A DNA stretch of 42,838 nt from a virus. Positions 5,519 through 33,641 of the stretch are shown here, in pieces. Numbering within the stretch: position 1 is the stretch's first letter; every line of letters begins with the position of its first letter. The notes beneath the pieces are model-generated. The model was not told the origin of the DNA, did not search any database, and saw only the letters and a program-made list of their open reading frames with translations. The stretch lies in IMG/VR virus record IMGVR_UViG_3300008267_000107, positions 1 to 42,838 of that record; one strand, given 5' to 3'. The translations under genes were made by a program, and so were the position numbers.

Positions 5519-5546
5519 TTGAAGATGGGTGACCGGGTGCTACCAT
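5519..5546 (+). promoter_or_regulatory. possible promoter for the recombination operon
   Basis: TTGAAG (5519-5524), a 16-base spacer and TACCAT (5541-5546); each hexamer matches consensus at four of six positions. It would give a short leader before the ATG at 5569. Weak on sequence alone, but a rightward promoter is expected in this divergent gap. Confidence 0.3.
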
Positions 5547-5568
5547 GACCGACCCAACCAGGAGACAC

Positions 5569-6516: not shown

Positions 6517-6517
6517 C

Positions 6518-7324: not shown

Positions 7325-7533
7325 GCCTGTTAAGTCCGAACCAGTTGGCCGAACGGTGGCAGATGTCCAGTAAGACCTTGGCCCAGTGGCGTTGGAAGGG
7401 CATTGGCCCCAAGTACGTCAAGCTTGGCCCGAACGATAAGTGCTCCGTCCGTTACCGAGTTGAAGATGTCGAAGCTTTCGAGCGTGCTAGCCTCAGTGAA
7501 CCCGCTAAGGTGGAGGCGACCGATGAGTCGTGA
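7321..7533 (+). CDS. small helix-turn-helix protein (AlpA/excisionase-like)
   Basis: A 70-aa protein with a GTG start that overlaps the recT stop. The first 55 residues (LSPNQLAERWQMSSKTLAQW, then GPKYVKLG and RYRVEDVEAFER) fit the winged HTH_17/AlpA fold used by excisionases and small phage regulators. With no integrase in the window, a regulatory or DNA-architectural role is more likely than excision. The 3' end overlaps the next gene by 11 bases. Confidence 0.75.
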   Translation: MSLLSPNQLAERWQMSSKTLAQWRWKGIGPKYVKLGPNDKCSVRYRVEDVEAFERASLSEPAKVEATDES

Positions 7534-7834
7534 AGGACTAGCTCTTCGTGAGAAGGGCGAGAAGAAGGTGCTCGACAACAACTTGAAGTGGCGAAGCGAT
7601 ATCGCCTACATCGTCGAGCAGTTCATCAAGCGTGGCAAGCCGTTCACCTGTGCCGATGTTCGGCAGGCTGCGGTCAACTGCAAGCTGGCTGAGCCTTCGC
7701 ACCCCAATGCCTGGGGTGCTGTGCTCAACACCTTTGCCCGCAACAAGCGAATCGTCCGCACCGGGAAGATCGTCATGTCCCCGTTCGCAACGAGGCATGG
7801 GTCGTACCTTCCCGAGTGGGAGCCGGTTCGCTAG
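7523..7834 (+). CDS. winged-helix-like hypothetical protein, 103 aa
   Basis: The ATG at 7523 has GGAGG seven bases upstream. Its pattern (a helix around DIAYIVEQFIKRGKPFTCADV, then AWGAVLNTFARNKRIVRTGKI) suggests a winged-helix fold similar to small host-takeover or DNA-binding phage proteins. It is the last gene of the rightward recombination unit. Its TAG shares the palindrome CTAG with the stop of the oppositely directed giant gene. No function can be assigned. Confidence 0.6.
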   Translation: MSREGLALREKGEKKVLDNNLKWRSDIAYIVEQFIKRGKPFTCADVRQAAVNCKLAEPSHPNAWGAVLNTFARNKRIVRTGKIVMSPFATRHGSYLPEWEPVR

Positions 7835-13800: not shown

Positions 13801-16800
13801 GATGCGGCGCGGATCTCTAACGGCGATAGTATCTAGCTTTTGCTCTACGGTAGATTCTTGCAGCAAAATGCTGTCATACTTTTCAAGCACAGCATCAACA
13901 ACATTAGGGGCTTCCCAAATCATGTAGTTGCCGTTTATTACATGCTGCTGCATGTCGGGGCGCAAAGACTCCCACGAGGATGCCTTTAAATACTTAAGTA
14001 CCTCAGGAAGAAACTCTCTCCACTGCTGCCGTGGGTTGAAAACACGACCAGTGTCTAAATATATCTCTAAGACGCGAACGCCCATTTCGCTTTGTGCGTC
14101 AAAAACAGTCATGCCATCAAGCAGCGACCTTTCATAATCTCGCGCTTTGTCTAAAAGCGCAAACACTTCATCGTCCGGCGTTTTTTCCCGCGATCCGTAC
14201 TGAGCTAAGAGCGAATAGTATTGTTCGTCAAAGAACTTCTTGGATAACTCTTTAACGCTTTTAATGCGCTCTACGACTGCTGGCTCTGGAGTTCTGTGCC
14301 CACCACTTCCAGTGGCATAGCGACGCGCAAACTCTTTGTCGTAACTAAAATACGACAGCTTGCTTGGGTCTCTGTATGCTGGATTAAAAGTTGTAAACTC
14401 CTTTTTGGTTCCGTGATACACGCGAACGACATCTAGGCCCGCTGCCTTAGCCGCTGCGTCAACCATCCTCTGCGCCGTCTCCATGTCCCCCCGCTCAACA
14501 GCGGCAAGGTAGTCGGCGTCCATCTGGGCAACGTCTTGATCCAGCATCTCGCCGCCAGACACAGGTAGCTTCCGCGCAATCGACTGACGCTCGTACTGCT
14601 CGGCCTGCTTGATCCAATCCGCCTGCGCCTTGATGTCGGCCTCGGGCGACCCAGTCTTCTTCATCTGAGCTAGCTGCTGCTTGGCCTGCACAATCTCAGC
14701 CGAGATGTTGCGGCCACCAAACGGCACAGGCGCGATAGCTTCAGCCTGCTGTGCAACTTCCTGCACGTTGGCAGCAGCCGCGCTGGTCGTTGCCTTAGCG
14801 GCAGCCAGCTTGCCGCGCATGCTCTTGATCTGGTCCTGATGCTTCTGGTACGCCTTGACCGTTCGGTCGTATGCCTTCTGCTCCTTGGCCGTGGCGTTGT
14901 CCCGACCGTTAGGAAACACCGTAGTCTCCGCCTCGGGCTTGGGCGGCGGGTTGGCGACCATGTCCTCCAGCTTCTTCTCTAAGGCCTGGATGTCTGCGGC
15001 TGCCTGCGTACCCTCCGCGACGTAGGGTTCGGCGGTCTGCATAATCGCCTTCTGCCCAGGCGTCTTGCCCTGCAACTCAAGGAGGCGAGCCGAGAGCTTC
15101 TCTACGTCAGCCAGGATGGGGTCGGCCTGACCGGCAAGGTCGGCGGAACTGACTCCCATCTCGTCCTTCTTGGCTTCGTTGACCGTCCGAGTCAGACGCT
15201 CCTTGACCTTGCCAAGCACCTCCTCGACCTTGGTCGCGTCCAGCAAGTCCTTGGGCGCAATAGCAACCCCAGGCTGGCCGCCAAAGGCTTCGCTGTCGAT
15301 GGTGCTAAGCGGCTGGGTTAGGTCAACCGAAGGCCGCCCAGCGGGCTGCATGGGCGAGAATGGGGCTTGCCCAGGCTCAGCCACAGGCTCCCTGGGAGTC
15401 AGCCTCCCAAGCCCAGCCGACTCGACGGCAAGGGCAAACTCCGGCGAGCGCATGAACTCCACCGGCTTCTTGCCTACACGCAGGCCAGCCGCCACGGTGA
15501 ACACCTTGATCAGTTCCGCGTTGGCCTCGGCCTCCGCTTGGCTGCGACCAGCGTCCATGATCTGCTGCTTGAACGCAGCCTTGACCTGACGCGCCTGCCG
15601 CACGATCTCCATGTTGTCGAGGTGAGTCTTCTTCAGAAGATCCTTACCCTCGTCGATGTACTGCTGAGATAGCCTATCGACGGTCATCGCCTCGTTGAGG
15701 CTCAGCGTCTGCCCCTCCATGCGAGCGTGGAACGACAGATCCTTGCCGACCTGAGAGTTGAGCAAATGCGTTCCCCATTCACCCGCACTGAGCCGAAGGT
15801 CCACGTTTTCATCGCGGGCCTTCTGCAACCGCTCCATGAGGTTGGGGATCTTAGTTGCCAAGTCCGCCATCACCGGGTTTGGAGTCGCCATCCCAGCGCG
15901 CAACTGCTGGACCGAGATCTTCTGCTCAGCCGCCATCTTCTCTAGCTGCTTAGTTTCAGCAGCCAAGATCGATTCTTCAAAAGCCTTGGGGTCGATCTCG
16001 ATGCCGACCTCCTGGGCCAGGGTATCGTTGATTACCGCTGCAACATTGGGATCGCGAGCGTTCGTCTTGGACTTAGCTGCCGACTCAACCAGCCGGTCAA
16101 AGCCAGCCTTGACCGACCTAGCCTGAGCGACGTATCGGCTCTGGACTAAAGCGTTAGCCAGGGGGCCAACCGGGGCGATTAACGCCATGCCCTTTGACGT
16201 TTCGGCGGCAACAGCCTTTAGCTCATCAAACAGCTTGGAGCGTTCCTCCGCGCTGAACCCACCTTCCTTAAACGTCTGGATCGCCGTCCACTGCGTCAGG
16301 GTCTCGGCAAGCTCCTGCCCAGTCTCGACAACGACACCCTTCGTCGATTCACGCAGCAGACCTCTCCAGATCTGATTAGCCGTCGCACGGCTAACGGCAC
16401 CAGAGACTACGGAAGAAGCTGCGCCTCGGCCAAACACCTGCCCCATCGTAGGCAAGTAAGGCTCAACAAACGACTTGAACACCTTGCCGCCAAGGTAGCC
16501 GGTGACGGCACCAGTAGTAGTGGCCGCAATAACCGACTGCTCGTGAGTTAAGCCCTCCTGGCGAGCTTGGTTGTACGTCTCGCCAGCCATCAGCAAGCCG
16601 TTCATAACGGTGCCAAGCGCAGTACCAGCAGCCAAACTTGTGCCGCCGGTTGCCGGAGCAGCAAGCACAGTGCCCGCGCCAACCGCTATAGAAGGCCACA
16701 TCTGGCCAAGCAAGCGGCCCGAAGCAGCCGCAAAACTGTCGCTGGTTTGAGCAACCGCAACGCTGGCCTGCAACTTGTCGTACTCTTGCTGGTCCTCGCG

Positions 16801-17301
16801 AGACAGATTGCCGTCACTAGACAGAATCCGTAGCAAGCCATAGTACGACATCGCGTTAGTATTGTGGCCCGCACCAAGCTGGCGACTAATGCTGCCCCAG
16901 GTGCTGTCCGCTTTCTTAAGCTCGGTGATGTCGTCGTATGTCTGGGCTAAGATGTCCTTGTTATTAAACATCTTGAACAGGTTGGGATTGGTGCGCTCAA
17001 GCTGGCTGCGCGCCATAGCCTCCTGCTTCACGAACTGCTCAGCAAACGACAGGTTGCTCTCAATCGTTGCCGGGTCAACGTTCATTTTCTGCGCGTACTG
17101 AAATGCGCGCAGCTTGATTTCTGGGTCTCCCTGAAGAGCCTGCCTGTAGTCCTCCAAAAACTTGGCACGCTTTCGCTCCTCTTCTTGCTGAATCAGTTCC
17201 TGCTCCCGCTGCTGCATCTGCTGCTGCAACAGAATAGGATCCTGCGTCGGCTGAACGGTCTCGGGCGTCGAAGGGACGGGCGGCGGAGGAATGTCGCTCA
17301 T
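7831..17301 (-). CDS. giant polyvalent ejection protein: two ART-like modules plus zinc metallopeptidase motif, 3156 aa
   Basis: The order of parts is: proline/glutamine-rich N-terminus and coiled coil (1-60), and a Gly/Ala-rich membrane-active segment (about 200-285). A first ADP-ribosyltransferase-like module follows at about 955-1185: VYHGTKKEF with His963, YFSYDKEFARRYA, and a typical ending RRIKSADPVTRDEQGN. A second begins near 1218 (ILYHGTPW, His1221; AYGWGFYTTA) and ends near 1795 (GFSGMRYEAG, NWLIWDQEIL), with about 450 residues inserted inside it. A HELAHW zincin motif lies at 1849-1854, then long helical regions and a late hydrophobic segment (about 3007-3030). This combination is typical of phage polyvalent proteins, which are packaged in the virion and injected to modify host targets. 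It is the last gene of the late region, after two internal virion proteins, which fits ejection. The actual targets are unknown. Confidence 0.8.
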   Translation of the reverse strand: MSDIPPPPVPSTPETVQPTQDPILLQQQMQQREQELIQQEEERKRAKFLEDYRQALQGDPEIKLRAFQYAQKMNVDPATIESNLSFAEQFVKQEAMARSQLERTNPNLFKMFNNKDILAQTYDDITELKKADSTWGSISRQLGAGHNTNAMSYYGLLRILSSDGNLSREDQQEYDKLQASVAVAQTSDSFAAASGRLLGQMWPSIAVGAGTVLAAPATGGTSLAAGTALGTVMNGLLMAGETYNQARQEGLTHEQSVIAATTTGAVTGYLGGKVFKSFVEPYLPTMGQVFGRGAASSVVSGAVSRATANQIWRGLLRESTKGVVVETGQELAETLTQWTAIQTFKEGGFSAEERSKLFDELKAVAAETSKGMALIAPVGPLANALVQSRYVAQARSVKAGFDRLVESAAKSKTNARDPNVAAVINDTLAQEVGIEIDPKAFEESILAAETKQLEKMAAEQKISVQQLRAGMATPNPVMADLATKIPNLMERLQKARDENVDLRLSAGEWGTHLLNSQVGKDLSFHARMEGQTLSLNEAMTVDRLSQQYIDEGKDLLKKTHLDNMEIVRQARQVKAAFKQQIMDAGRSQAEAEANAELIKVFTVAAGLRVGKKPVEFMRSPEFALAVESAGLGRLTPREPVAEPGQAPFSPMQPAGRPSVDLTQPLSTIDSEAFGGQPGVAIAPKDLLDATKVEEVLGKVKERLTRTVNEAKKDEMGVSSADLAGQADPILADVEKLSARLLELQGKTPGQKAIMQTAEPYVAEGTQAAADIQALEKKLEDMVANPPPKPEAETTVFPNGRDNATAKEQKAYDRTVKAYQKHQDQIKSMRGKLAAAKATTSAAAANVQEVAQQAEAIAPVPFGGRNISAEIVQAKQQLAQMKKTGSPEADIKAQADWIKQAEQYERQSIARKLPVSGGEMLDQDVAQMDADYLAAVERGDMETAQRMVDAAAKAAGLDVVRVYHGTKKEFTTFNPAYRDPSKLSYFSYDKEFARRYATGSGGHRTPEPAVVERIKSVKELSKKFFDEQYYSLLAQYGSREKTPDDEVFALLDKARDYERSLLDGMTVFDAQSEMGVRVLEIYLDTGRVFNPRQQWREFLPEVLKYLKASSWESLRPDMQQHVINGNYMIWEAPNVVDAVLEKYDSILLQESTVEQKLDTIAVRDPRRIKSADPVTRDEQGNVIPLSQRFDVSKPSFLYQQDLDPEDQLERDDLQKLAQILYHGTPWIWEPEPGYPFGRPRLDKLGTGEGVGAYGWGFYTTAVISVAEHYRSQEYRTLDRLKFDGKPSRELLTDVTVDDIALAADSENAYLWSQNGADALASNLNRADTLWKWLFDVAPKILDGTASEEHKRLFYVRLRIRPYHYDHAGLSRYLFAEGFEKLGPSEQGISVARFNQTEKALAQWLIALRDTASAQGTLNNSGEFDSAIHAKSANKALVSQASLHARKRRAALWLVGNHRSLGVKLGYDYMDKLGGVPVDQTPLWLKEDWKQFGNQFYIKPGSLYTFEVPDFPFIDNFVPINDQPVLKAKLIDAFGEELFNSITNNGANSFDDSRLKFQLSLKGSKHQFFTKANARRIFSMAGEPFTVSDSLEGFFLAEDMAKAGLDYRSYAPEGIGEHERAKLFLLKIASNLRFDDAAIELMVRAVFDNKSPRLGTYEQYLHKDFKTFLQAIPDIEQLLVKLPQKTVRSLLSYVHSDLNNFFDEVPGLSSSALFKTGSASKVFSTINLALGQVAKFLGAESDVEPGVGKLGFDPDPEGLSKFLLSLGFSGMRYEAGMLSGQGRVGSGDANWLIWDQEILNKMAVVSRNEELMADFRKVYESIQNGTRRGEFDPATGVIMLLKDADSSTLTHELAHWMLESMGKMAMDPNADQSLRDDMGALLSWFGIKDGADGRPALDIWINSPLSDRREGHERFAISFEDWLLKGIAPTKGMSRLFDQMRYMMIKAYGDVYNPLNEAYKRRFGKDLPAMTPEVKEVYTRLIDADQQMDEAEAAADMLPRFTTKEQWIKNGGDDAGWAEYQQALTDARADAKADITQQSQKAMAYLVRSEAAYLRDIQKQYDAEYEKTSVEVEKELRGKTEYKLLDFLAKGVVMDEDGKPIESTRREVHRLDRDKVVAIMTGKTATEIKNWMQELVAAGLDLTNVQRFIRKEGLDPTEVANQFGYQNATQMLSILRDTKPLAEAVANETAARMQKKDGFIDVKNAPMKVVAPLVAKALHNKARMKFVAIEIGALIKSQQPVRILNAAAAQGATNKLREMRLGEVLPNKSKQTARRFRSLTMMHLAKAESEQAAKAAEQELLYTHLHEQQLDFQDFLKKAQERMKSWSRPDKDIVRTRDIDIVNAGRAIMAHFGMYSGDASFSPDKLLSDLERLHPHVYHNLKPLIVKAGLYRQRMEMANRPSKSMPYNLLTVDEFKIVMAQLDGLWDTAKQVRTAEIAEQKIAIDQQEEELVSQVLVNGVSPPPPGTKTWWERTVQAMGVKMADFTARLQHYFKFMDNGNVGAFTKHIWRPMNEATVKYQDMMLEYTKKYADILQKFDLPSGQIIATELTVDDPSRPGQKTPFIFGRGSNQGKAELIKFLMNLGNASNRKYAVNGFKFDPANLDQFIERMFKEGILSDADLDLVQQVFDLTESLGMQANDAFRKMHGYRVEMIPPTEITNPATGKTIKGGYIPIVSDKWVAPRVNLHGDDLEIDLDGFSTSVSQMIPSVQSNFLKERTERQFPQLDLNLASLAGHIENVVRFVSVAPTLRQVKRLISRPNVIDALNAHDPDVISKLIKPWLVRTANQSVGNPGAAPYWNGAIWRNARAGSTAVAMATNVSAMIQNVFGFFPAARQVGYANMMRSVWSVITNYGQMRDQVYKSSDFLRQSSRDGLYEVMTYIQSQGKVGKIAKINNKVREYVFILQLVTQGPLDIAIWNAKYQQVMGKLSPTMDYEAAHKEAATQADALITTTQNANRPIDVAMSETGSDAYRVLTSLTGWFTNMVNLNRFEAQRILRDEVGWLNKTTQLLELFVTSSIMPVVLGQLVSDWWYGRGAWDDEDEEKDALSLAMRSVYGMAKAAVAPLPAISQFARGMENLFLDDNIINDKLPIAPGVDMVFNAIRRAKNSDEFFSMTNIDTFADLATILSGGRVPLNWVTDPLKAVTDEESNTFPARLMR
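12000..14450. other. low-GC island inside the giant gene
   Basis: Base composition drops within the gene. By hand count, 12241-12300 has 24 G+C of 60 and 13201-13260 has 27 of 60, against 39 of 60 at 15001-15060. The island covers the first ART-like module's end and most of the second with its insertion. The reading frame is unbroken. This suggests the modules came from a different source than the flanking structural parts. Confidence 0.6.
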
Positions 17302-20504: not shown

Positions 20505-23500
20505 TTAGCCTCCTAAAGCAACCTGTGCAGTCATGCCAATAAGCATGAGAGGGACAGGATCAGTTTGAACAATGCGAATGCTTCCATCCTCAGACCAGTC
20601 GCCTGGGATGGTCACTTGGTGCTCTGTGCCGTCTTCGGTCTGCTCGACAAAAGCAGTAACCAATTGACCGGACTTACGCGGGCCGACGTAGAACGACTTG
20701 CTGCCAATCGTTCGCAGCCACACCTTATTGACGTTCTTCATCCTGCCCTGCAACAAGCCTTCCGCCTGCTGAGCGATGGCGAGAGTCTCTAGCTCAGCCT
20801 CGTACTTAAGGCCAATCGCAACCTTCAGGTACGGCTTGCCAAGGCTAACGATGCCTCCGCTGACGGTGAAGTCTCCAATGTACTCACCATCTCCAATCAC
20901 GCCGACCGTCTTGCCCTCAAGGAACGACAGTCCGCTGTAGCTGTCCCTGGCCCACGCCCACGAGTTGGTCGCAACGTTCTGAGTCGGAATAGGGGCTGCA
21001 TCAACAAGCGACCCAAGGGCTACTGTGCCGGATTGAATCGTTGAGATAGACACCACCACCTTCTCGCCACCGACGTAGGTCAGGTGAAGCTGGTCGCCGA
21101 TATCCGAACCCGTAAATGTAGACTGGCTGCTAGTAATCTGAACCAGTTCCTTGGCCGCAAAGCCCCCAGACGCAACCGAAGACAGCGTCATGGTATGGCC
21201 AGCAGATGCATTAGTATAACTACCAAGAGCAAAGCAGTCAAGATACTGCGCCCCTGGCAGGGTCTCTAAAACGGACATCTGAATCTTCTCGACGTACCGC
21301 TTAGTTACTCCGTTGATCGATCTTCGGACGATGGCGTACAGGTAATCCGACTCGTTGTCCTGCGCCGCCGCGATGCTCTCAACAACACCGTCAGTAACGT
21401 GCTGGTGCCAACCTCCGACACGCTCCTCAGGGACATAGGTAAAGCCCAGGAGCTTGCCAGTCGAGGACACAGCCCACACAATAGGCTGCGGTGCGCGGGT
21501 GTAGGCAAGATCGGTTACCGTGTAGTTATCAAACAGGTGGGAGGCACGCAGGCTGATGTCACCGGTAACGTAGCCACCGACCCGGCTATCAAAGCCAGCC
21601 TCGCGAAGCCTGCCGCCACGAGCCGAAGCAAAGATCAGAGAGTTGTTGATGATGACCGGGGTGGGATACCCCGCACCAATAAAGCTCTGAGGGCGGACGT
21701 AGATCGAGGTTGGCGTAATGCCGTCGCTGTTGACGCTGGTTACCCGGTACTCCGACTTGTCGGTTAGAACCAGCAAGTCCTGAAGCGGGACCACATGGCG
21801 AATGGTCTGCACCTCCTTGCTAGCTAAGGAGAAGGCAATTCGATCAGTTGCCTGAAACGGGATGCGAAAGCCTAGGTCGTTAAGGGTAAACGACCGAGTC
21901 ATCCATATCTTACTAGGGTAAGCACCCGTACCGGCGAAGATCGACCTTTGCTCGTAAAACGCGACAGCCTGCGGATACTCTCCAGCCGACTCCAGAGACC
22001 GGTCAATCTTCGGCGGGTTAACGCTAAAGTCAGGAGAGATATTCTCATCCTTAAACGACTGGGCCGATCCGCCATCCGTCTCGCCCACTAATCCATACAA
22101 GCCACTAAACTGCCGGTAGATGCGGTACTTAACCGCTCCAGCCACGGGGGTCCAAGTAATAGTGTTGAATGCCCCACGCTGGTAAATGTTGTTTACTATG
22201 GTCGCCCCAGGCGAAGATGGCTCACTCTCGATGCCGTCATTGTTAATTGCCGTGACGGTGTAAGTGTTGGTAGACTCGCTGCCATCTGGCCAAAGTTCAG
22301 CCGTAGCACCAGAGTTAAACGTTACTGGGTTAGCTGCGCCAACGGCTGAATGCAGTAGCGGTGCTCCGTTGGTAAACCCTGTGGTTAGGCCGCACGCCTT
22401 GAGCGTGAAGCGATACTTCTGGGCACTAGTGCTAGGGTTAAACGGAAGGGCAATGCACCAAATGTTGTTATCTAGTACAGAGATGCCAGTGCCTCTGAAG
22501 TAGATGTAATCTCCGATTACATATCCATGCTCATTATTGCCAGCGCACAAGATAACTGCGTGAGTATTAGTGCCAAGTGCAGACTCGATAATGCTAATTC
22601 TTGGGCCAGCACTTGCAGTAGCAGTCACCGAAGACGGCGGATCAAGCTCAGAGTTAATGGCTAGCAGACTGGCTGACCAGCCTTGACTAATTCGCTTGAT
22701 CTGAACGGTCTGATACTTTCTATGCGCGATTAAAATGGTCGCGCCGTTTTGAGCGTAAGAAAGCTCTGCAAGCTCCGACTCTGCGTAAGTAACTGGGTTG
22801 GCAACCTCTAGCGGCACGTTACCTTTTAAAGTCCACTTGCCCACTTCCGGCCCAGTATCCTGAGAGTAAGTAGCTACCGTACACTCGTAGTAACCAGCGG
22901 CCTGACCAACTCCGCCAGGGTTAGACCAGTAGACAATCTGGCCTGGAGTATAGTACTTGTGGCACTTTAACGTGCCAGTTCCTGCGGTTGTAAACCCGCC
23001 CCAAGAAGTAACTCCGCTAATCGGGCGAACCTTGATCGCAGTTGACGAAGCGATGTCAACATAATACCTGTCGCTGCGTTGCCTTGGATTTACCGAAGTA
23101 TCGATGCTGGACAGATACAGGTAGTAGGCACCAGTAATGGCCGGGCCACCAGTGGTTGGAGTTACCGCAGCACCAGCCGAGTTCCTCACCCTAAAGCTGT
23201 AGCCGACGTTGTACGCGGCAGTAGGCTCGGCGTAGAAGTACGGGTCTCCACCGGTCGGAACAGGCTGCGCCCGACTAAACGGGTCGTTGACAACGAACTT
23301 GTGCGGTGCCGCAGAGGTAATCGTGTTGTACAGGCCGCTCGCCACCGTAAAGCCAATAGGCGAATACGATGTAATGATCGGCATGTTGCCGCTGCACGAA
23401 AACCCGATGGCTTCGTTTGTCGAGAAGCCATGCGCTGATCCAAATGACACAAGACCAGTTCCTGTGGCAATCGTCACAGTGGCTGGCAGCTTGTAGTCAA

Positions 23501-23804
23501 ATGCCGTGTACTGGTACGAGACCTGCTGGCTGTTCTCGTAGAAGCGGAAGTAGTTAGTGCCAACCTCCAGGACAGTAGAAGGGCTGCTATTGACGCTGAT
23601 CAGGCGGCTCTTCTTGGTGCTGTCCTTAGTTTCCGCAACGTACTGAAACCCCCACCGCTTGCGTGCTGGCCCCTGAGGCAAGCAGTGCAGGTTCTTCATC
23701 GTTCGAACGCCAAACTGATACCGCTGGTCGTCCATGCGACCATACATTTCCGGCGACAACTCTCCGCCGTTAAACGAAAGGCTTAGGTTTCGAACGTTAG
23801 GCAT
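20505..23804 (-). CDS. tail tubular protein B-like (tail nozzle) protein, 1099 aa
   Basis: The N-terminus (NLSLSFNGGELSPEMYGRMD, then GPARKRWGFQYVAETKD) and the C-terminus (WLRTIGSKSFYVGPRKSG, PLMLIGMTAQVALGG) are characteristic of podovirus tail nozzle/tubular B proteins. These form the distal tube and bind the tail fibres. It is longer than the usual 700-850 aa. The extra length lies in beta-rich inserts at about 150-350 and a fibronectin-III-like segment at about 510-600 (NTYTVTAINNDGIESEPSSP, AVKYRIYRQ). It lies directly after the adaptor fusion, as expected for TTPA-TTPB order. Confidence 0.85.
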   Translation of the reverse strand: MPNVRNLSLSFNGGELSPEMYGRMDDQRYQFGVRTMKNLHCLPQGPARKRWGFQYVAETKDSTKKSRLISVNSSPSTVLEVGTNYFRFYENSQQVSYQYTAFDYKLPATVTIATGTGLVSFGSAHGFSTNEAIGFSCSGNMPIITSYSPIGFTVASGLYNTITSAAPHKFVVNDPFSRAQPVPTGGDPYFYAEPTAAYNVGYSFRVRNSAGAAVTPTTGGPAITGAYYLYLSSIDTSVNPRQRSDRYYVDIASSTAIKVRPISGVTSWGGFTTAGTGTLKCHKYYTPGQIVYWSNPGGVGQAAGYYECTVATYSQDTGPEVGKWTLKGNVPLEVANPVTYAESELAELSYAQNGATILIAHRKYQTVQIKRISQGWSASLLAINSELDPPSSVTATASAGPRISIIESALGTNTHAVILCAGNNEHGYVIGDYIYFRGTGISVLDNNIWCIALPFNPSTSAQKYRFTLKACGLTTGFTNGAPLLHSAVGAANPVTFNSGATAELWPDGSESTNTYTVTAINNDGIESEPSSPGATIVNNIYQRGAFNTITWTPVAGAVKYRIYRQFSGLYGLVGETDGGSAQSFKDENISPDFSVNPPKIDRSLESAGEYPQAVAFYEQRSIFAGTGAYPSKIWMTRSFTLNDLGFRIPFQATDRIAFSLASKEVQTIRHVVPLQDLLVLTDKSEYRVTSVNSDGITPTSIYVRPQSFIGAGYPTPVIINNSLIFASARGGRLREAGFDSRVGGYVTGDISLRASHLFDNYTVTDLAYTRAPQPIVWAVSSTGKLLGFTYVPEERVGGWHQHVTDGVVESIAAAQDNESDYLYAIVRRSINGVTKRYVEKIQMSVLETLPGAQYLDCFALGSYTNASAGHTMTLSSVASGGFAAKELVQITSSQSTFTGSDIGDQLHLTYVGGEKVVVSISTIQSGTVALGSLVDAAPIPTQNVATNSWAWARDSYSGLSFLEGKTVGVIGDGEYIGDFTVSGGIVSLGKPYLKVAIGLKYEAELETLAIAQQAEGLLQGRMKNVNKVWLRTIGSKSFYVGPRKSGQLVTAFVEQTEDGTEHQVTIPGDWSEDGSIRIVQTDPVPLMLIGMTAQVALGG

Positions 23805-23807: not shown

Positions 23808-26800
23808 TCACCGGTTGCTCATCCAGGGAGCCGTGTGAGTAGGGGGTACTAACTGCTTGTTGATGCTGTCGTGTTGAGTTGCCTTGCTCATGTAGAACGC
23901 CATCATCTGGCTGCATCTACGAGCTTCTGCTGCGCCAACGTCACCCTTGATCAGCGGCCCAGCCAGCATCCCAGACAAGTGCCAGCTTAAAGAGATGACG
24001 AACAGCTTGCTGAAAGCCGTCGAGTCAGCAACCTTGGCCGTATACCGAATATTGGCATCCTGCTGGTTAGTGTACAGAATGCGATTACCATACGAGTCCG
24101 ACTCGATAATGTACTTCTGAGCGACCTTGGTCTTGTAGTCGTACTGATCGTCTTTGGCGTCTGGCGGCATGATGGCGATGACGCTGGCAACATCGCTGGG
24201 AACAGAGTAGGCGTACTGCCACTCGGTCCTCAGGTTGTCTACCGCATCAAGAGCCTTGCGCTTAGTGGCAAAGTCCCACGGGTGCATCTCCAGCAAGCTG
24301 TCTCGGGCAACCGGGTAGAACTTGGCGCAAAGCGCAGCCTGCGTAGAGCCGTCAGGCGGGTCAATGCTGGTGATCTGGCCAGAATCGCCGATGTTGGCCA
24401 GTGCAAGGTTACAGATGTCTACCTCGCTCGTGCCCATGCGGTAGACCTCTAGCAGTGCCTCAAAGGCACGACCAGCAATCTTGTGCATGCTCTCACCGTT
24501 GTAGTGCGCGCCATCTGGCATCATCACCAAGTCTTGCACCTCAAACGTGCGGCTGTACTGATCGTCATCGACCATGCTCTCGATAACTTCGTTAAGCTCT
24601 TCGGCGTAAGGCCATGGGCCGACCTTGATCTTCGGGTGAATCCAAGGGATCTTATGAGCACTGCCGCTATACATTCCGCGCTCCTTGATGGCTGCGCGAA
24701 TTGAGTTCTTGAGCGTAGTGCAGGAGTTCTTGTACCGAGTCGTGGCTTCTAAGTTAGAGCCGTCGTTCTCTCCTTGCAGCCAGACAATGCCTACGCATTC
24801 TCCGGTATCTCCCGCCAGCAAGAAGGCAGTCTTGGCTGAGTCCAAAACATCCATCAGTCTGGCGTAGCAGTTGTTCGGCTCGCCTGGAGACCAGCTTGCC
24901 TGCTGATCTGGATCAAACCACGCATAGCCAGAGCCAAGGTCAACGCCGCCGTACCCGACCTCCGAGTGAGACACGTTAGTTCCGCCAATAGCGAAAGCTG
25001 CAACATGCATGGTCTCGCCGAAGTAGTCGTACAGCTTGCTACCCAAGCCAACGTAATGCGATTGCTTCGGCTCTAACGATTGCGCCTTGAAGCCGTCGTA
25101 GGGCTGATAAGGCCCAGCAACCGGAACGTAATGGTTGGGGTAGTTAAACCCTGGCGGGTAAGGGTTGTACTTGTTGTATTGATCGTATGTCGTTGCCGTG
25201 CAACCGTAGCCCGTAATGGCGGAAGAGCTAGTTAAGGCAGAGCCGCCGTATGTGGCACTAATGGTGCTTTGCGTCGTAGTGGAGGCGACAACGTAGTAAG
25301 TCGAGTTGTCCGACAGTGGCAACGGAAGCCCTTGCTCTACGAACTCGTAGGCATCTCCAGTAGACGGGGCAGCAGTAAACCCTGGGCTGACCCTGACCTT
25401 ATCAGGGTTAAAGAAGATGATCTGCCTAGACTGCCCAGCCAAGGCACCGCTGGTAAACCGCATCCACTTGCCAACCCATCCGTTTCCTGGCTCGCCAGTA
25501 CTAAGTACTGGAGTCGTGTCAATCGTGTGAATGTCGGTCGCAAGGTTCTGCGTCTCAATGTCAAGCGCGTCGCCTGGGCTTGGCGCATTTGGGAACGCAG
25601 CAACGTAAATTGTAGTGCCGACATTGTCCTGCACCACATCTCTAGATAGACCACTGTTCGCGCCAGAAGTGAATCGAACAGAGTAGCCGACGGCACTCGG
25701 AAAAGACGCGGGCAGTACAATTTGCGTCGTCGTGCCTCCAGCCGCAGCAGTCAGCGAGCTAATCACCCGCTCGTCCTTGGCAACAAAGTCTCGGCGAAGA
25801 ACTCGCGCCCGCGAGCTAAGCTTTAAAGCGGTGTTCTTGGTAAGGTTGCCGATGCCGACGTTGATCTGCCCGCCAGAACTTGCGGTGATCGTAGTCGGAA
25901 GCGAGATGTTGGCGTAAGCCCGCCCCTCAAACGGAGACCACGGCAGCCAATACGCCCACTTGTGCCACGGCACAGCCACGCTAGCAACGGTAGGCGGCTC
26001 CATAACGAACTTGTCGTTAACGGTCAAAGCACCAAAGGTGCCCGTATACGCAATAGTAGACCGATACTGTCCGCTAACAAATTCGTAGGAGACATCACCA
26101 AGGGTGACCGACTGACCGCTATTGGCACCGCTGATGCTGCGAAGCTTAATGCCGGTTAAGCTGCCTCGCCATGTCTCCAACAACCGCATTCCGAACACTG
26201 ACTGAGGCGCAAACCTGTTAGACACTTCGCCGTTTAGGTACGACTGAACGTTAATGCCAGCGGCTCCAGCACTAAACGGCAAGACGTAGCCGCTTGAGCC
26301 AATCGAGTTTGTTAGCTCATAAATGTGAGGGAGGTCAACTCGCTCAATTGCAACTGCGCCAATAGGAGTGTACGCAATAACGGGTCCGCCAGGAAATGCG
26401 GATAGCTCAAAAAAGCCACCGTTCTCAAACAAAAGCCCCTTACGCTTGATGAAGTAATCCTTGTCAGCGGTGAACTCGGGAGGAATCGGCAAAGCCGTTG
26501 AGAACCTAACCCGCTCTCCTTCCGTCAAGTATTGCTGGGATAACGTCTGAAAGCCATACAGGGGCACAAGTGGAATAACTTGCGGGTTAGCCAGGAACAG
26601 CGGCTCGGCCTTAAGCTTGCTGGCATACAACGTCTCCGGCGCATGCACTAACTGAAGCTGCGCCGCACTGCTTGGCGCAGTGCCACCAGTAAGCTCAATA
26701 GGAGCACCGCCAGGAGTCAGACTAAACTGAAACCGGCTAATGCCAGAGCTAACATTTACAAGGTTCTTGATGTAGTAAACCGTGTTAATGCTGATCCCGG

Positions 26801-28097
26801 TAGGCAGTACAGCGGGGGCAACAACCCGGTTAATGGCAATAGGCTGGTTTGTCTCAAACTCCCATGTGTCGGCAACGTTGGCTCCGCCGCCAGCACCATC
26901 ACCGAAGAAGGTGCGAGACTGAACCTCAATGTAGTCGTTGGTGGCCCAGGTGTTGGCCAAGGTCGTTGGCCCCATTGCAATGCGGACACCGCGCCGAACA
27001 TCGAAAGTCTCAATACCAACAATGGTGCCGTTGTTCGTCCATGTAATTGGCGCACCACCTAAGCTAGCCGACAACTTAAACTTTGTGGCAGTAGCCTTAA
27101 CTACATAATATGTAGTAGCCGTAGCAAGTCCGGTAGGAAGCGTGCTGCTGCCACCGCCGGTAATGCCTACCTGAACCTTGTCGCCGTCGTTGTAGCCGTG
27201 CTCAATAGCGTTGGTGCCATCATCAGTGCGAGTCACTAAGATCTGGTTGTTCTCGTTAGAGTAAACGACTCGCTTCGGGCCGGTCGGGTAGGTCGAAGTG
27301 GCAAGATCCCAATCGCCAAAGCCCTCAAACCTCTTCAGCGTAATGCAAGAGTTGTCAGGAATGGGCTTGGCCGAGTAACGCATGTACGCCTTGATAGGCG
27401 CACCGACAGTGCCGGAGTCCTGAAGGATGTTGCCGAACTCCGCAGTCTTGTCGGCGGCTACGTCGAGGGCATTGCCAAGATCTGACAGGCCTCCGAACAT
27501 CGCGGAAAAGCGAACCTTTCCGGTATCGAACGACTCAAGGCGAATCTCGTAGCTGAAGTCCTCCCCAGGCTCTGGGGCAGGCATCATCGGCGGGGTTACC
27601 GAGACCGTGTTGGTCAAACCCGTGTACGAAGTGACTACAACGGTGTGCTCAATACCGGTCTTCTTGCGGACAACCTTAATCCCGTTAGGGTTGTACTGCC
27701 AGTAAACGGTAGAAACGAGCTTGTCCGTCGTGCAGCCCGCAAGAGTCGAGCAAGTGCCAGGATACCGAATGGTGTATCCACCACCAAGGTTGAAGTAGCT
27801 GGCAACCGGGTCGTAGAACGTCAGCATCTTGACGTTCTGAGCAGCTAAGCCCTTAACGTCAAACGACTGCCACCCACCGCGCTTCGGACCTTCGCCAAAG
27901 CGGCCCGTCTGAGGGCCACCAGGGAACGTCGAAAGCATGGTGAAGTAGTCGTTGTAGCTTCCCTGACTCGTCTGCGAAGGGGTCGCCTGCGGGCTTCGAA
28001 GGCGAAGCAGCGGGTTGTTGTCTTCCCACGATTGAGCATCACCAATTGCCGTGCTATTGCTCTGACCAATTGCCAACAGGAACTTACGCTTCGCCAC
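23808..28097 (-). CDS. SGNH esterase tail protein fused to tail tubular protein A / head-tail adaptor
   Basis: The GTG at 28097 has AGGAG upstream; a longer frame to 28139 lacks support and runs into a terminator. The 1429-aa product starts with an SGNH/sialate-O-acetylesterase block I (AIGQSN, Ser13). The other blocks are AIGGTN near 1037, WLQGEND near 1106 and DGAHYNG with Asp1195/His1198. Between block I and block II lie about 1000 residues of beta-rich repeats: four FCCH-like modules (TYYVV...GGAPI near 327, 441, 549 and 934) and repeated FTSGA-x-G-x-SR modules. From residue 1221 the sequence is a complete tubular protein A (MGTSEVDICNLALANIGDSG, LLEMHPWDFATKR). The esterase would deacetylate or trim a surface polysaccharide. 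The adaptor joins portal to tail tube. Confidence 0.85.
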   Translation of the reverse strand: MAKRKFLLAIGQSNSTAIGDAQSWEDNNPLLRLRSPQATPSQTSQGSYNDYFTMLSTFPGGPQTGRFGEGPKRGGWQSFDVKGLAAQNVKMLTFYDPVASYFNLGGGYTIRYPGTCSTLAGCTTDKLVSTVYWQYNPNGIKVVRKKTGIEHTVVVTSYTGLTNTVSVTPPMMPAPEPGEDFSYEIRLESFDTGKVRFSAMFGGLSDLGNALDVAADKTAEFGNILQDSGTVGAPIKAYMRYSAKPIPDNSCITLKRFEGFGDWDLATSTYPTGPKRVVYSNENNQILVTRTDDGTNAIEHGYNDGDKVQVGITGGGSSTLPTGLATATTYYVVKATATKFKLSASLGGAPITWTNNGTIVGIETFDVRRGVRIAMGPTTLANTWATNDYIEVQSRTFFGDGAGGGANVADTWEFETNQPIAINRVVAPAVLPTGISINTVYYIKNLVNVSSGISRFQFSLTPGGAPIELTGGTAPSSAAQLQLVHAPETLYASKLKAEPLFLANPQVIPLVPLYGFQTLSQQYLTEGERVRFSTALPIPPEFTADKDYFIKRKGLLFENGGFFELSAFPGGPVIAYTPIGAVAIERVDLPHIYELTNSIGSSGYVLPFSAGAAGINVQSYLNGEVSNRFAPQSVFGMRLLETWRGSLTGIKLRSISGANSGQSVTLGDVSYEFVSGQYRSTIAYTGTFGALTVNDKFVMEPPTVASVAVPWHKWAYWLPWSPFEGRAYANISLPTTITASSGGQINVGIGNLTKNTALKLSSRARVLRRDFVAKDERVISSLTAAAGGTTTQIVLPASFPSAVGYSVRFTSGANSGLSRDVVQDNVGTTIYVAAFPNAPSPGDALDIETQNLATDIHTIDTTPVLSTGEPGNGWVGKWMRFTSGALAGQSRQIIFFNPDKVRVSPGFTAAPSTGDAYEFVEQGLPLPLSDNSTYYVVASTTTQSTISATYGGSALTSSSAITGYGCTATTYDQYNKYNPYPPGFNYPNHYVPVAGPYQPYDGFKAQSLEPKQSHYVGLGSKLYDYFGETMHVAAFAIGGTNVSHSEVGYGGVDLGSGYAWFDPDQQASWSPGEPNNCYARLMDVLDSAKTAFLLAGDTGECVGIVWLQGENDGSNLEATTRYKNSCTTLKNSIRAAIKERGMYSGSAHKIPWIHPKIKVGPWPYAEELNEVIESMVDDDQYSRTFEVQDLVMMPDGAHYNGESMHKIAGRAFEALLEVYRMGTSEVDICNLALANIGDSGQITSIDPPDGSTQAALCAKFYPVARDSLLEMHPWDFATKRKALDAVDNLRTEWQYAYSVPSDVASVIAIMPPDAKDDQYDYKTKVAQKYIIESDSYGNRILYTNQQDANIRYTAKVADSTAFSKLFVISLSWHLSGMLAGPLIKGDVGAAEARRCSQMMAFYMSKATQHDSINKQLVPPTHTAPWMSNR
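24437..24450 (-). promoter_or_regulatory. likely internal translation start for a standalone adaptor (209 aa)
   Basis: The in-frame ATG at 24437-24435 (MGTSEVDICN) lies exactly where free-standing tubular A proteins begin. It is preceded on the minus strand by AGAGGT with a spacer of about seven to eight bases. Initiation here would give a 209-aa protein ending at 23808, the normal family length. Confidence 0.5.
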
Positions 28098-28113
28098 TTG
28101 AGTTCTCCTTTCC

Positions 28114-28153
28114 GACAAAAGAAAACCCTGCCGCACCAAGCGGCACGGCAGGG
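28114..28153 (-). terminator. rho-independent terminator between head and tail genes
   Basis: On the minus strand CCCTGCCG (28153-28146) pairs with CGGCAGGG (28133-28126) around a loop, followed by TTTTCTTTT (28125-28117). It lies between the cement-protein stop and the esterase/adaptor start. It should end or reduce transcripts from the capsid genes. Confidence 0.85.
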
Positions 28154-28173
28154 TCAGTCAAACTACGCTAGGA

Positions 28174-28656
28174 TCAAGCGGTGAACTTGAAGCCGCTGGC
28201 GTAGAACTTCTTGCCATCCTGATAAGTCAGGGTGACATCGATGGTCATGCTTAAAGCAGTAATGGCCGCACCACTAAAGATGCCAGCAGAGATGTAACGC
28301 TGACCATTAGTAAGCACGCCGTCCGTCGGCCTAAACGTGTGCGGCGGAATCGCCATGACATACTGCTTGCCCACCGTCATAGCAGTATCATCAACATCCA
28401 TGCTGGCAATTACGTTGATGTCAGCGTTAACCTTGCCAGTGCCGTCAACTCCCGACGCACTAAAAATGCGTAACGATCCACCGCTTCCGGAGCCAGTAAA
28501 AGCAGCCGTGATGGTGAAAACTACGAAAAGATCAGTGCCTTGACCAATATCGCGGTTAACTGAAAGGTCAATGCTATTAGGGGCGTAAACAGCACCCTGG
28601 GCACCAGAAGTAAAGGCCGCAGCGTCGGCCAAACGTAAGTTGTTATCAAGAATCAT
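28174..28656 (-). CDS. Bbp16-like capsid cement protein, 160 aa
   Basis: MILDNNLRLADAAAFTSG at the start and the beta-rich remainder match the Bbp16 family of Bordetella phage BPP-1, whose members sit on the outside of the capsid and stabilise it. A strong AGGAGG lies six bases before the ATG, suiting a protein needed in hundreds of copies. It follows the major capsid gene and precedes a terminator, so it ends the highly expressed head unit. Confidence 0.85.
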   Translation of the reverse strand: MILDNNLRLADAAAFTSGAQGAVYAPNSIDLSVNRDIGQGTDLFVVFTITAAFTGSGSGGSLRIFSASGVDGTGKVNADINVIASMDVDDTAMTVGKQYVMAIPPHTFRPTDGVLTNGQRYISAGIFSGAAITALSMTIDVTLTYQDGKKFYASGFKFTA

Positions 28657-28671: not shown

Positions 28672-29688
28672 TTAGACAAGTTCTTCGTTCAGCTTGATAG
28701 AATCGCACTTGCGAATCGGGACACCAAGGAACGACAGGTAATTCTGCGGAGTGCCGAACTGAGTAAGACCCGGCTGAATAGCCAGGACGCCATTGCTCTT
28801 CTCCATGGCGAGCATCGACAGGCCGGAGAAAACCTTGCGGTGCATGTAGAACACCGGACGGCAAGCCGACAGGTTGGGGATACGATGCAGAGCGCGAGTC
28901 ATCTGGTAGATGACGTTCTGCATATCCGTGGTCGTCTGCGTGCTGGTCAGGGTGTCAAGGTGCGAGTGGTTGATATCGCAAATACGAACCACATAACGCC
29001 AATCCTTGACGACAAGGCCGCACTTCCATTGGTAGCGCGTCGAGAGAGCCTGCATACGGTTGTCACCGCTGTAGACCGTCTGCTCGCCAAGATCCTCGTG
29101 AATCAGGCCAGCCTTGCTCCCCTTCGGGAACGGGCAGTAAACCGTATTGTCGCCCCAGCCAACAAGATAAATCGACGTATTGTTGGAAGAGTCGGCACCA
29201 TCGCTATCTAAGATGTTGGCAGCATTGCCAGCACCGGAGCTACCGTAGCGCGACGCCAAGCCAAGAAACTCCTTGGGGTCCGAAGCCGGGTTACCATAGA
29301 ACATGGTAAACGCCATCTTCTGGTTCATGGCCTCAAGGAACGCCGAGTCTTCCGACAGGCGGAACTGAGCCGTGTTGCCGTTAAGCATCGCGAGATCCTT
29401 GTCGATCTCCGAGCGGGCCTCCAGAATTGCGCAAGCCTCATCGACCTGAGCGGTCGTGGACTTGCTGTTCGGAATGCCCTGGTTCAGCGAACGCCAGTAG
29501 ACGGTCGGCAGACCAGTGCGAATGACGACGCGCTCGCCAGTCGGAAGATTGCCTTCCTTCCAGACGCAGTCGGTTAGGATTTCGTTGGTTTGCGAAAGAA
29601 GCTCAGCGACGACCGGGATGCGACCGTCTGGATCAGTGCGCTTCGCCCAATCAATGAGCGTAAGATTCGAATTGCTTAAAACAGCCAT
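28672..29688 (-). CDS. major capsid protein (Bbp17-like, HK97-type), 338 aa
   Basis: The N-terminus (SNLTLIDWAKRTDPDGRIP) and segments such as GNPASDPKEFLGLASRYG match the BPP-1-type major capsid family. Its 338-aa length and its position between scaffold and cement protein agree. No prohead protease or cleavage region is apparent, as in other podoviruses with separate scaffolds. The Shine-Dalgarno site is weak; the start follows the scaffold stop by two bases. Confidence 0.88.
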   Translation of the reverse strand: MAVLSNSNLTLIDWAKRTDPDGRIPVVAELLSQTNEILTDCVWKEGNLPTGERVVIRTGLPTVYWRSLNQGIPNSKSTTAQVDEACAILEARSEIDKDLAMLNGNTAQFRLSEDSAFLEAMNQKMAFTMFYGNPASDPKEFLGLASRYGSSGAGNAANILDSDGADSSNNTSIYLVGWGDNTVYCPFPKGSKAGLIHEDLGEQTVYSGDNRMQALSTRYQWKCGLVVKDWRYVVRICDINHSHLDTLTSTQTTTDMQNVIYQMTRALHRIPNLSACRPVFYMHRKVFSGLSMLAMEKSNGVLAIQPGLTQFGTPQNYLSFLGVPIRKCDSIKLNEELV

Positions 29689-29690: not shown

Positions 29691-30323
29691 TTAACCGTTA
29701 GGGTAAAGAGCCGACGCGAGCGAGTTGAAGTCCCTGGCAGTGCTCGGCTTCGCACCACTTTGGTTTCCGCCAACGTAGCGGTCTTCACTAATCGCCTGAC
29801 CGGCTCGATACCACGCCCGAATAACTTCGGGGTGATTACCAAGCCCAGTTTCATTAAGCAGCTTGCTTAACTCAGGCGAACCAAACTGGGTCAGTGCCTT
29901 TCGAGCAATGGCAATGCTATCGTTCAGCTTTTCTCCGCCGAACTCCTTGTCGCCACGCGAGGCCTCTTCCCAACCGCTGCGCTCCTGAGCCTTCAGCGCA
30001 TTGCTGCGCTCCTGCATGGCAGGCGCGATCTGATCAATCAGTCGCTGGGCGTTGTCCTGCGATAAGCCAAGTTGCTTGGCCGTGTCGCCGTACTTCTGCA
30101 TCACGTTACTGTCCAGGGTTGTGCCCTCTGGAGCCTTAAACGTGAATGGAACATCGGCTGCCTTAACTTCGGCAGCAGGAGGAGCAGCAGGCTTGTCGCC
30201 TGAAGTTGCTTGCTGAGCCGCCGGAGCAGTGACCAACGTGGCCTGCTGCGCGGGGGCAGAGTTTGCAGTGGCGTCGCCCGCAGCAGTTGGATTAGTTGCG
30301 GTTTGCGTCATCGCTTCCGTCAT
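29691..30323 (-). CDS. capsid scaffolding protein, 210 aa
   Basis: The first ~65 residues are low-complexity Ala/Pro/Thr/Gln, followed by a helical region (LDSNVMQKYGDTAKQLGLSQ, AQRLIDQIAPAMQERS) and a C-terminal segment ending NSLASALYPNG. This is the usual form of podovirus scaffolds, whose C-terminus contacts the capsid protein. It sits immediately before the major capsid gene. GAAGGAAA precedes the ATG. It begins inside the 3' end of the Bbp19-like gene (32-base overlap). Confidence 0.75.
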   Translation of the reverse strand: MTEAMTQTATNPTAAGDATANSAPAQQATLVTAPAAQQATSGDKPAAPPAAEVKAADVPFTFKAPEGTTLDSNVMQKYGDTAKQLGLSQDNAQRLIDQIAPAMQERSNALKAQERSGWEEASRGDKEFGGEKLNDSIAIARKALTQFGSPELSKLLNETGLGNHPEVIRAWYRAGQAISEDRYVGGNQSGAKPSTARDFNSLASALYPNG

Positions 30324-31657: not shown

Positions 31658-31914
31658 AGCGAGCACTCCCAGGTCATCACTTCGTCAAGGCTGAACGTGT
31701 AGGTGGTTTGGCGTGAGTTGATGTCATCGACGACAAGCGTCTTTAAGTGCTCCAGTACGTCGGCATTCGTCAGGTTGTCGTCGGGGACGTAGCCAATGTC
31801 GCCCGTGGTGATGCCTTCGACTGCTTCCGTCAGCCGGTAGTCAACGCACCGCTCAAGCGTGCTGCCCACGATGTCGATGTGCGGGTTCGTCAAGATCAGC
31901 TTCGGAACTGGCAT
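31654..31914 (-). CDS. hypothetical protein, 86 aa
   Basis: The ATG at 31914 overlaps the tail-fibre stop (TGATG) and has AAGGTG upstream, so it is translationally coupled to the fibre gene. The longer frame to 32046 lies inside the fibre gene and is unlikely. The sequence is acidic with no recognised domain (NPHIDIVGSTLERCVDYRL). A role in fibre assembly or as a tail accessory is possible from coupling alone. Confidence 0.6.
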   Translation of the reverse strand: MPVPKLILTNPHIDIVGSTLERCVDYRLTEAVEGITTGDIGYVPDDNLTNADVLEHLKTLVVDDINSRQTTYTFSLDEVMTWECSL

Positions 31915-33641
31915 CAGATCACCTTCGGGTGTTGCACGATGCGATACGAAAACACGGTGAACGTTTGCGTCGCCGTGGCCGCAGACGAGAGCACGCGCAG
32001 CTTCACGGCTTGCGAGCCGGTAAGGTTGCTCGCGCTGGTGTGCCACGCCTGCCGGTACGTTGTCGTGGCGATGGACAGGCCGGTGTCTGCCGCACCGGGA
32101 GCAGAGTGCTCCGCGAAGATCGTTACAGCAGCCTCGGTTGTGCTCTTGACCGCGTACACGGCGCGCAGCTTGATCGGTGCGCGGTTGGTTGCGCTCGCGG
32201 CGATGGTTGTACCGTCAATACAGGTAACGCCAAACGCGCCAAGCTCGGCCTCAAACGTGTACGTCCTAGTCGCGCCAGAGTTGTTCAGGATTGTGCCGGT
32301 CAGTTCGATCTCGATTGTGTCTCCAGCGGTCACGGTGACCGTCTTGCTGACGAGATCGACAAGCGTCGTGCTGTTGGCCGCGACAGCAAGGATGGGCGCA
32401 TCGGCAAACTTGACCGGCGACGAGCCGCCTGCCGGAGTCGCCCAGGTCTGGTCACCGCGCAGGAACGTGGTTGCGCTGGCCGTGCCCGAGCCAAGACGCG
32501 CCGTCGCCATCGTGCCGGTCGTGATGTCGGCAGCGTCGTGAACGTGCGACTCCAGCGCATAGTTCGCCGCGCTTTCCGTAGCCATCGTGCCAAGGCCCAG
32601 CGTCGTGCGCTGCGCTGCGGCGTCTGCATCGTCGATTAGGGCACGACCGGCAGCCGTGCAGGTGATCTCCTCGACTACGCCTGCGCCAGCACTACTGCGC
32701 CCAAGCAGCTTGTCGGTCGCGCTGACGTTTTGGATCTTCGCGTACGTCACCGCCGACGCCTTTAGCTCCGGCGTGTCGATCCCAAGGTTTGGGACGCGGA
32801 TGCCGCCGGGCACTAACTCTAATCCCTTACCGACTGAAAGAATCTCAATAGCACCACTGCCAGCCGTTGTGCGCCCAAGGATGTAGTCAGCGTTCATGGT
32901 GTAGTCACCATTCGTGATGACTCCACCCGCCGATCCACCTGTCGCATTGAGCGTTGTTCCGCTAAACGACAGGTTGGTGCCAAGCGTGATTTCTTGCGCT
33001 ACGCCACTTCCGCTAGTACCTCGCCCAAGCAGCCTCGATGCCGTGTAGTTGGGCACATCGTTGACGCGGCCCGGACCCATCACAAGGATCTCGCCCGTGC
33101 TGGCATGCACTCGCATAACGCGACCGATGTTTTGCACCAAATGCGTTGCTGCGGTAGGCCGCGTGCCGGTCAAGGCACCCACGCTAGCTGCCACAAAAAC
33201 TACTTGGTTAATCGTGTAGCCGGTTGTGTCCAAGCCGCGAAGCACGCCGAACGAAGTGGCAAACCCTTCGCCGTTGTTCAGCAGTTCTTCTTCTAGCAAA
33301 CCAACGCACGGCATTTTGGCCGAGTCGCTAGCATCGCATGCAGTTACTTCTGATGCGCCGCTAGCTCCAACGCTTCCGGTGATGTAGACCGGGCATCCCT
33401 TAGCAAGCGTGCCACCGCTAGTGTTCTTGACCGGGAATCGCACAACTTCGATGTGCGCCCAGGTGCCGTCGCCGCGCAGATACGTCGAATCGTCGGCGGT
33501 GCCGGTAGCTAGCGCAGCAACGCTGATAGGGGCTTGAAGAAAGCCGAGACGCTCGACCTCGCGACGGAGCACATCTCCAACTAAAGGGATGCGCTCCGGC
33601 TGATCGCGGCGACCTCCGGTATTGTCAAACCCTAAAGCCAT
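31914..33641 (-). CDS. tail fibre / receptor-binding protein, 575 aa
   Basis: Typical fibre repeats are present: YLRGDGTWA near 54 and FLRGDQTWATP near 390. Three copies of a shaft module also occur (LLGRGTSGSGVAQEIT, ILGRTTAGSGAIEIL, LLGRSSAGAGVVEEIT) at about 205-305. The C-terminal ~170 residues form a beta-rich domain, probably the receptor-binding tip. The N-terminal part probably anchors to the virion. No chaperone or self-cleaving domain is recognised. The start overlaps the preceding stop (TAATG). Confidence 0.75.
   Translation of the reverse strand: MALGFDNTGGRRDQPERIPLVGDVLRREVERLGFLQAPISVAALATGTADDSTYLRGDGTWAHIEVVRFPVKNTSGGTLAKGCPVYITGSVGASGASEVTACDASDSAKMPCVGLLEEELLNNGEGFATSFGVLRGLDTTGYTINQVVFVAASVGALTGTRPTAATHLVQNIGRVMRVHASTGEILVMGPGRVNDVPNYTASRLLGRGTSGSGVAQEITLGTNLSFSGTTLNATGGSAGGVITNGDYTMNADYILGRTTAGSGAIEILSVGKGLELVPGGIRVPNLGIDTPELKASAVTYAKIQNVSATDKLLGRSSAGAGVVEEITCTAAGRALIDDADAAAQRTTLGLGTMATESAANYALESHVHDAADITTGTMATARLGSGTASATTFLRGDQTWATPAGGSSPVKFADAPILAVAANSTTLVDLVSKTVTVTAGDTIEIELTGTILNNSGATRTYTFEAELGAFGVTCIDGTTIAASATNRAPIKLRAVYAVKSTTEAAVTIFAEHSAPGAADTGLSIATTTYRQAWHTSASNLTGSQAVKLRVLSSAATATQTFTVFSYRIVQHPKVI

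Follow-up and report, generated by a model that had tools for sequence, protein, structure and literature searches.

An SGNH esterase-like module, split by a long insert and fused in frame to phage head-tail connector proteins

The viral record IMGVR_UViG_3300008267_000107, a stretch of 42,838 nucleotides that is called the window here, encodes a 1429-residue protein in which an SGNH esterase-like module, itself split by a long insert, continues in frame into a head-tail adaptor of the TtpA type. Related viral contigs (designated by L numbers) carry the same module joined to other connector-like proteins. We put at roughly 60% the probability that this one polypeptide both forms the 12-fold ring of adaptors beneath the portal and hangs the SGNH esterase-like module outside the neck. 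The fusion itself, the split of the module and the changes of partner among relatives are read from the sequences; the fold is predicted from a shorter relative.

Organization of the fused gene

The gene lies on the minus strand and forms a single open frame from a GTG start at 28097 to a stop codon at 23808-23810 (Table 1). The preliminary description of this DNA had reported the uninterrupted frame without stating its strand, and the motif positions given there hold to within one or two residues. The adaptor starts at Met 1221 and matches PHROG_394 over residues 1223-1429 (1.5e-41), covering positions 2-188 of the 190 in the profile; the adaptor is complete, in agreement with the earlier description of a complete tubular protein A at the C-terminus.

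A stop codon hidden by a sequencing error near position 24440 had been considered. There is none: contig L002, which is nearly identical to the window and comes from a different assembly, has the identical frame, and the fusion frame is also found in diverged contigs, namely nine with an adaptor identity of 62-63% (L009-L017) and L031 and L032 (57%), with inserts of varying length. A missed stop, a misassembly or a chance read-through that joined a tail-spike gene to an adaptor gene would fit the place of the junction, which is almost exactly the adaptor's usual first residue. However, the fusion recurs in dozens of contigs from many metagenomes and with several partner families, it is under purifying selection, and each record has one adaptor. 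Broken frames were seen in just two contigs, L137 and L019/L027/L144 (the latter three names denote one contig), where they are probably sequencing errors. The contig, partner, selection and copy-number data already refute an artefact, whose remaining chance we regard as negligible.

The split SGNH domain and its predicted structure

Judged by its motifs, the SGNH domain is discontinuous, with block I at the N-terminus and the rest in residues 976-1220. GQSN and QGE stand 1097 residues apart in the window and 379-1097 apart across 40 family members, against 120-166 in 18 ordinary SASA-type proteins, which implies an insertion of about 930 residues in the window. Pfam SASA (PF03629) matches residues 1068-1216 (1.9e-9; 37.9 bits against a curated cut-off of 24.8) at profile positions 97-225 only, leaving the block I part of the profile unmatched, as expected of a split domain. 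Profile alignment of the C-terminal part of the module to ordinary SASA enzymes gave a probability of 99.7%, and residues 325-531 of short members align to the SASA template from position 156 onward, past the template's block I. In the window, GQSN (residues 11-14) follows a predicted strand, which corresponds to strand 3-11 in the model described below. The Gly of block III is well kept in relatives and the Asn position is variable (GGTP, GSG, NGT or DGT, with GGTN in the window).

The insert contains the four FCCH-like repeats mentioned in the preliminary description (around residues 330, 441, 548 and 934). Of the "several" FTSGA-type repeats mentioned alongside them, two are clear (809 and 881), and a third near 653 is degenerate and was recognized by eye. 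A match to Phage_BR0599 also falls inside the insert (residues 807-848).

The fusion of L033, which has 771 residues and a short insert, was modelled by AlphaFold2 from 59 alignment rows, none of them taken from the phage collection. The predicted local distance difference test score (pLDDT) was 85.5 overall and about 96 for the first ten residues, with a predicted template modelling score of 0.80; an earlier model of L033 from 7 sequences (pLDDT 37) was discarded. In the retained model, an SGNH fold is predicted and a helix (521-559) crosses the junction, the last helix of the SGNH domain continuing into the adaptor. Foldseek matched the adaptor end to the Carin-1 connector 8ck1_E (6.5e-13, TMt 0.80) and to T7 gp11 7box (TMt 0.58), with further matches to LME-1, PhiM1 and KP32 TTPA, and the SGNH end to the SASA protein 2apj (2e-7), NanS, SIAE, XAC1771 and CE2 enzymes, a set of matches that includes both SASA and CE20 enzymes. 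Searching solved structures by sequence, with the SGNH alignment as query, found no match, whereas the fold search did. Motif spacing, the partial SASA match and this confident model of a short-insert homologue together support the split that had been proposed from the window.

The BFVD matches include two unnamed viral proteins, A0A516LTA4 and A0A516LMG1. The former, of 1084 aa, aligns with the L033 model along its entire length (TMq 0.75, E 2e-63) and, on that structural evidence, is probably a family member. BFVD also contains adaptor-like domains in longer proteins, Q6RCF4, A0A2D0YMN7 and A0A6J5LNM8, which are annotated as Ig-like (immunoglobulin-like; Vibrio phages VP2 and JSF9) or ChiA1 chitin-binding (uncultured phage). 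These longer proteins hint that adaptor fusions are commoner than annotated.

Fusion to several connector families

Profile scans using the SGNH alignment found the module in about 70 viral contigs, so that homologues with the same fusion, whose existence had been left to a search, are at hand. Every copy that is complete at its C-terminus is followed in frame by another domain. Within the set of 40 members, the partner is TtpA/PHROG_394 in 19, the Ad1 protein DnaT_2/PHROG_477 in 10, gpW-like in nine and unclassified in two (L121 and L161). Partners were recognized from hidden Markov model (HMM) matches (phrog_394; phrog_477 plus DnaT_2; phrog_2545/118/5774); the gpW-like calls have HMM support for L109, L162 and L165, the others being made by similarity and that of L152 by eye. 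Lower-identity fusions are L033, L107, L112, L123-L135, L151, L157, L164, L167 and L168. When the adaptor was used as the query, the matches were mostly standalone adaptors (L034-L106), an indication that the fusion belongs to this SGNH family in particular. Most relatives bear out the premise of a separate adaptor of about 200 aa, but additional domains on adaptors have been described, as in roseophage R4C (PMC10276861).

On a tree of the SGNH part (IQ-TREE, LG+C20, 591 columns, 40 members), at least eight changes of partner are needed, three being the possible minimum. Well-supported changes place L121 within a DnaT clade (100/100) and L156, a DnaT-type fusion, within a gpW clade (100/99). 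Neither Pfam nor PHROGs gives a convincing match to the C-termini of L121 and L161. These partners of about 160 aa (9906-10391 in L121, where the fusion adjoins Neck1, and 9843-10331 in L161) possibly represent an unrecognized connector family.

Gene order is informative about where the partners act. In L109 the genes run terminase, fusion, portal and protease, an order that matches the place of gpW in lambda. The L117 order, from portal and major head protein through fusion, Hc1 and Neck1 to tail terminator, tail assembly chaperone and tape measure, marks it as a long-tailed phage. T7 gp11 forms a 12-fold ring (PMC6702177), and the connector ring under the portal is made by W in lambda and Ad1 in HK97 and is a dodecamer in 80alpha (PMC11661146). 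Since these published equivalents all form a ring under the portal, the common denominator of the fusions, which by gene order occupy the connector slot, is a place in the virion rather than a protein family.

One fused chain or two products

Ten TtpA-type records of 41-45 kb (the window and nine others) contain exactly one adaptor copy each, and it is always fused. Similarly, six DnaT-type records have one DnaT_2 copy each, always fused. Members of the gpW type have a Pro/Ala-rich linker in place of the helix; no search was made for a separate gpW gene in them.

An alternative is that two products are made, either by cleavage of the long protein or by an additional internal start of the adaptor. 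The ring would then consist mostly of free adaptor, the SGNH part would be a separate or minor virion protein, and the purpose of the common frame would be co-translation or stoichiometry. In its favour, GAGG precedes an in-frame ATG by 8 nt in the window and AGGAG by 9 nt in L125/L146, the Met at the junction is kept in the window, L009-L017 and L031 and partly in L125-L132, and a head protease gene is present (29691-30323). On the other hand, L009, L010 and L031 have no ribosome site at the internal adaptor start, no start codon lies in frame in the 16 codons ahead of the junction in L033, L107, L151, L124 and L127, and the continuous helix of the model leaves no obvious flexible site for cleavage. 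Variation of start codon and ribosome site among relatives led us to reject an internal start as a conserved device; initiation there in addition to the fused product is possible in the window and in L125/L146, to judge from their motifs. We regard the two-product alternative as quite unlikely. The preliminary description had left open whether the module is rigidly tied to the neck or merely made in the same frame as the adaptor. The confident SGNH fold and the helix predicted to run on into the adaptor in L033 make the rigid tie the better choice, and a separate adaptor is possible in the window through a feature that is not conserved.

Selection and probable function

Ratios of non-synonymous to synonymous substitution (dN/dS) are 0.07-0.18 in the SGNH core, 0.17-0.43 in the insert and at most 0.14 in the adaptor. 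Core and adaptor are under purifying selection and the insert less so, as expected of a surface in contact with the host. Ser13 is kept in 35 of the 40 members and the block V His in 38. Asn replaces Ser13 in L125, L128, L132 and L135 and Glu in L168, with the His also gone in L135 and L168; these five contigs and L170, which is cut before its C-terminus, read GQNQ, GQNN, GQEN or GQDN instead of GQSN. The members without Ser13 that keep the fusion are apparent pseudoenzymes.

Such members would be accommodated if the module were structural or a lectin, with an SGNH fold put to new use as decoration of the neck, as a brace between adaptor and capsid or as a glycan binder that does not cleave. 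The authors of the R4C study likewise judge the Ig-like domain of that adaptor unlikely to act in adsorption. However, the high conservation of Ser13 and His, the strong purifying selection on the core and the restriction of Ser13 loss to subclades of the long-insert branch argue against this, and we consider a purely structural or lectin role unlikely. By analogy with the SGNH domains of phage tail fibres, the module is most likely an O-deacetylase as well as a glycan binder, with binding alone in the GQNQ clade.

The neck-borne arrangement that we favour can be pictured as follows. The N-terminal GQSN strand and residues 976-1220 would form one folded SGNH domain, interrupted by the large beta-rich insert, and its last helix is predicted to lead straight on into the adaptor's first helix. 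The neck would then bear a crown of up to 12 modules; this copy number and their outward orientation are suggested by T7 and 80alpha and by R4C, and by the same analogy a 12-fold ring is expected rather than the usual trimeric spike. The module would bind host surface or extracellular polysaccharide and, in members that retain Ser13 and His, O-deacetylate it; most of the contact with the glycan would fall to the fast-evolving insert. More broadly, the module would be portable, having been joined to several unrelated connector proteins at the same virion position. That it moves among unrelated short- and long-tailed phages, each time attached to the ring protein under the portal and providing up to 12 glycan-acting arms, has in our estimate a slightly better than even chance. 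Its presence on several ring proteins suggests a standard way of adding glycan-binding or glycan-trimming arms to the neck.

Several observations weigh against this picture. Ser13 is lost in five of the 40 sampled members, His in two and the Asp at -3 in several. L117 is long-tailed, and its neck is far from the cell at adsorption, where an enzyme is harder to explain. A phage collection searched with window residues 1-1222 and with the L033 module gave no match, and a bacterial genome collection yielded SASA-type enzymes only and no member of the module, hence no host. A plasmid search returned only two distant sialate esterases.

Comparison with known systems

Adaptors with extra domains, split SGNH enzymes and SGNH esterases in fibres are each already known. 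The TtpA/gp11 adaptors of T7, KP32, Carin-1 and BPP-1 (Bbp14) share the homologous adaptor domain and the gene position, but they are standalone proteins of about 200 aa; KP32 TTPA, which has no added domain, is reported to be enzymatically active itself (PMC5440376). Roseophage R4C resembles the fused family in having an additional N-terminal domain on its adaptor, an Ig-like attachment domain that cryo-electron microscopy places at the periphery of the dodecamer (PMC10276861). That domain is a single case of about 106 residues with no enzyme fold, whereas the fused family carries an SGNH module of 490-1220 residues on several connector families.

SGNH domains of tail fibres deacetylate O-antigen in Possum and lipopolysaccharide in G7C (PMC9569702). 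Possum gp66 and G7C gp63.1 are similar to the fused family in placing an SGNH esterase domain within the virion adsorption apparatus (PMC9569702), but they are separate fibre proteins on other proteins, are not fused to a connector and have no reported split by a large insert. In CE20 esterases, an inserted beta-sandwich domain interrupts the sequence of the SGNH domain and contributes to the active site (PMC12313940, PMC8245568). In contrast to the fused family, whose extra stretch spans some 230 to 950 residues, these are cellular enzymes with one inserted domain, found outside virions. The N- and C-terminal flanking beta-sandwich domains of the CE20 type are absent from the fused protein, whose first element is the GQSN strand and whose last is the adaptor, and only the split-domain principle is common to both.

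The open-access literature searched contained no report of an SGNH-connector fusion or of exchange between connector families, and a partner-swapping fusion of this kind appears to be undescribed so far. Work on host range and depolymerases looks to fibres and spikes; here an enzyme-like module is part of an essential connector, in a slot where adaptors are expected to be short. Long ORFs (open reading frames) in the Ad1/TtpA slot should accordingly be inspected during annotation. Repeated transfer among unrelated connectors amounts to a natural experiment on the requirements for neck appendages, and the members with a short insert open structure and activity to direct tests.

Genomic context

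Table 1. Coordinates of the fused gene, its parts and its neighbours in the window
Feature	Position	Strand	Remarks
Fused ORF, split SGNH module and TtpA-type head-tail adaptor	23808..28097	minus	1429 aa/codons
Shine-Dalgarno AGGAG	28105..28109	minus	7 nt ahead of GTG start
SGNH block I GQSN, residues 11-14	28056..28067	minus	candidate nucleophile Ser13
Inserted region, about residues 110-972	25182..27770	minus	four FCCH-like, two to three FTSGA-type repeats
SGNH/SASA domain, second part, residues 976-1220	24438..25172	minus	
Block III region GGTN, residues 1038-1041	24975..24986	minus	
QGEND motif, residues 1108-1112	24762..24776	minus	
Block V DGAH, residues 1195-1198	24504..24515	minus	candidate Asp/His
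Head-tail adaptor domain TtpA/PHROG_394, residues 1221-1429	23808..24437	minus	sole copy in record
GAGG 8 nt before in-frame ATG of adaptor	24446..24449	minus	possible internal start, lacking in most relatives
Tail protein PHROG_376	20505..23804	minus	BPP-1 bbp13 position, nozzle-like
bbp16-like gene, PHROG_427	28174..28656	minus	
Major head protein, PHROG_212	28672..29688	minus	
Head protease gene	29691-30323		
Terminator-like hairpin, 14 pairs then TTCTTTT	28124..28155	minus	between bbp16-like and fused genes

The order of genes in the window is that of BPP-1 (major head protein, bbp16-like, fusion, PHROG_376), with the fusion between the head and nozzle genes. A GC-rich hairpin followed by T-rich sequence lies ahead of the adaptor or fused gene in L003, L004, L007, L018 and L031 as well as in the window, and similar hairpins precede the standalone adaptor gene in BPP-1-like phages. 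Perhaps they reduce expression of the gene that follows compared with that of the head protein. Because the hairpin is common to standalone and fused genes, it is consistent with the module having been inserted between the leader of the adaptor gene and its first codon.

A separate putative tail fibre of 575 aa (31914-33641; PHROG_2282, DUF5907) is encoded near the portal gene, and the fused protein is therefore not the only candidate for adsorption. At the position of BPP-1 bbp10, the minus strand has an ORF of 3156 aa (7831-17301) that matches PHROG_9880, a family of unknown function. The plus strand encodes a RecE-like exonuclease, a RecT annealing protein and an excisionase-like gene (5545-7324 and 7321-7533), suggesting a temperate or formerly temperate phage.

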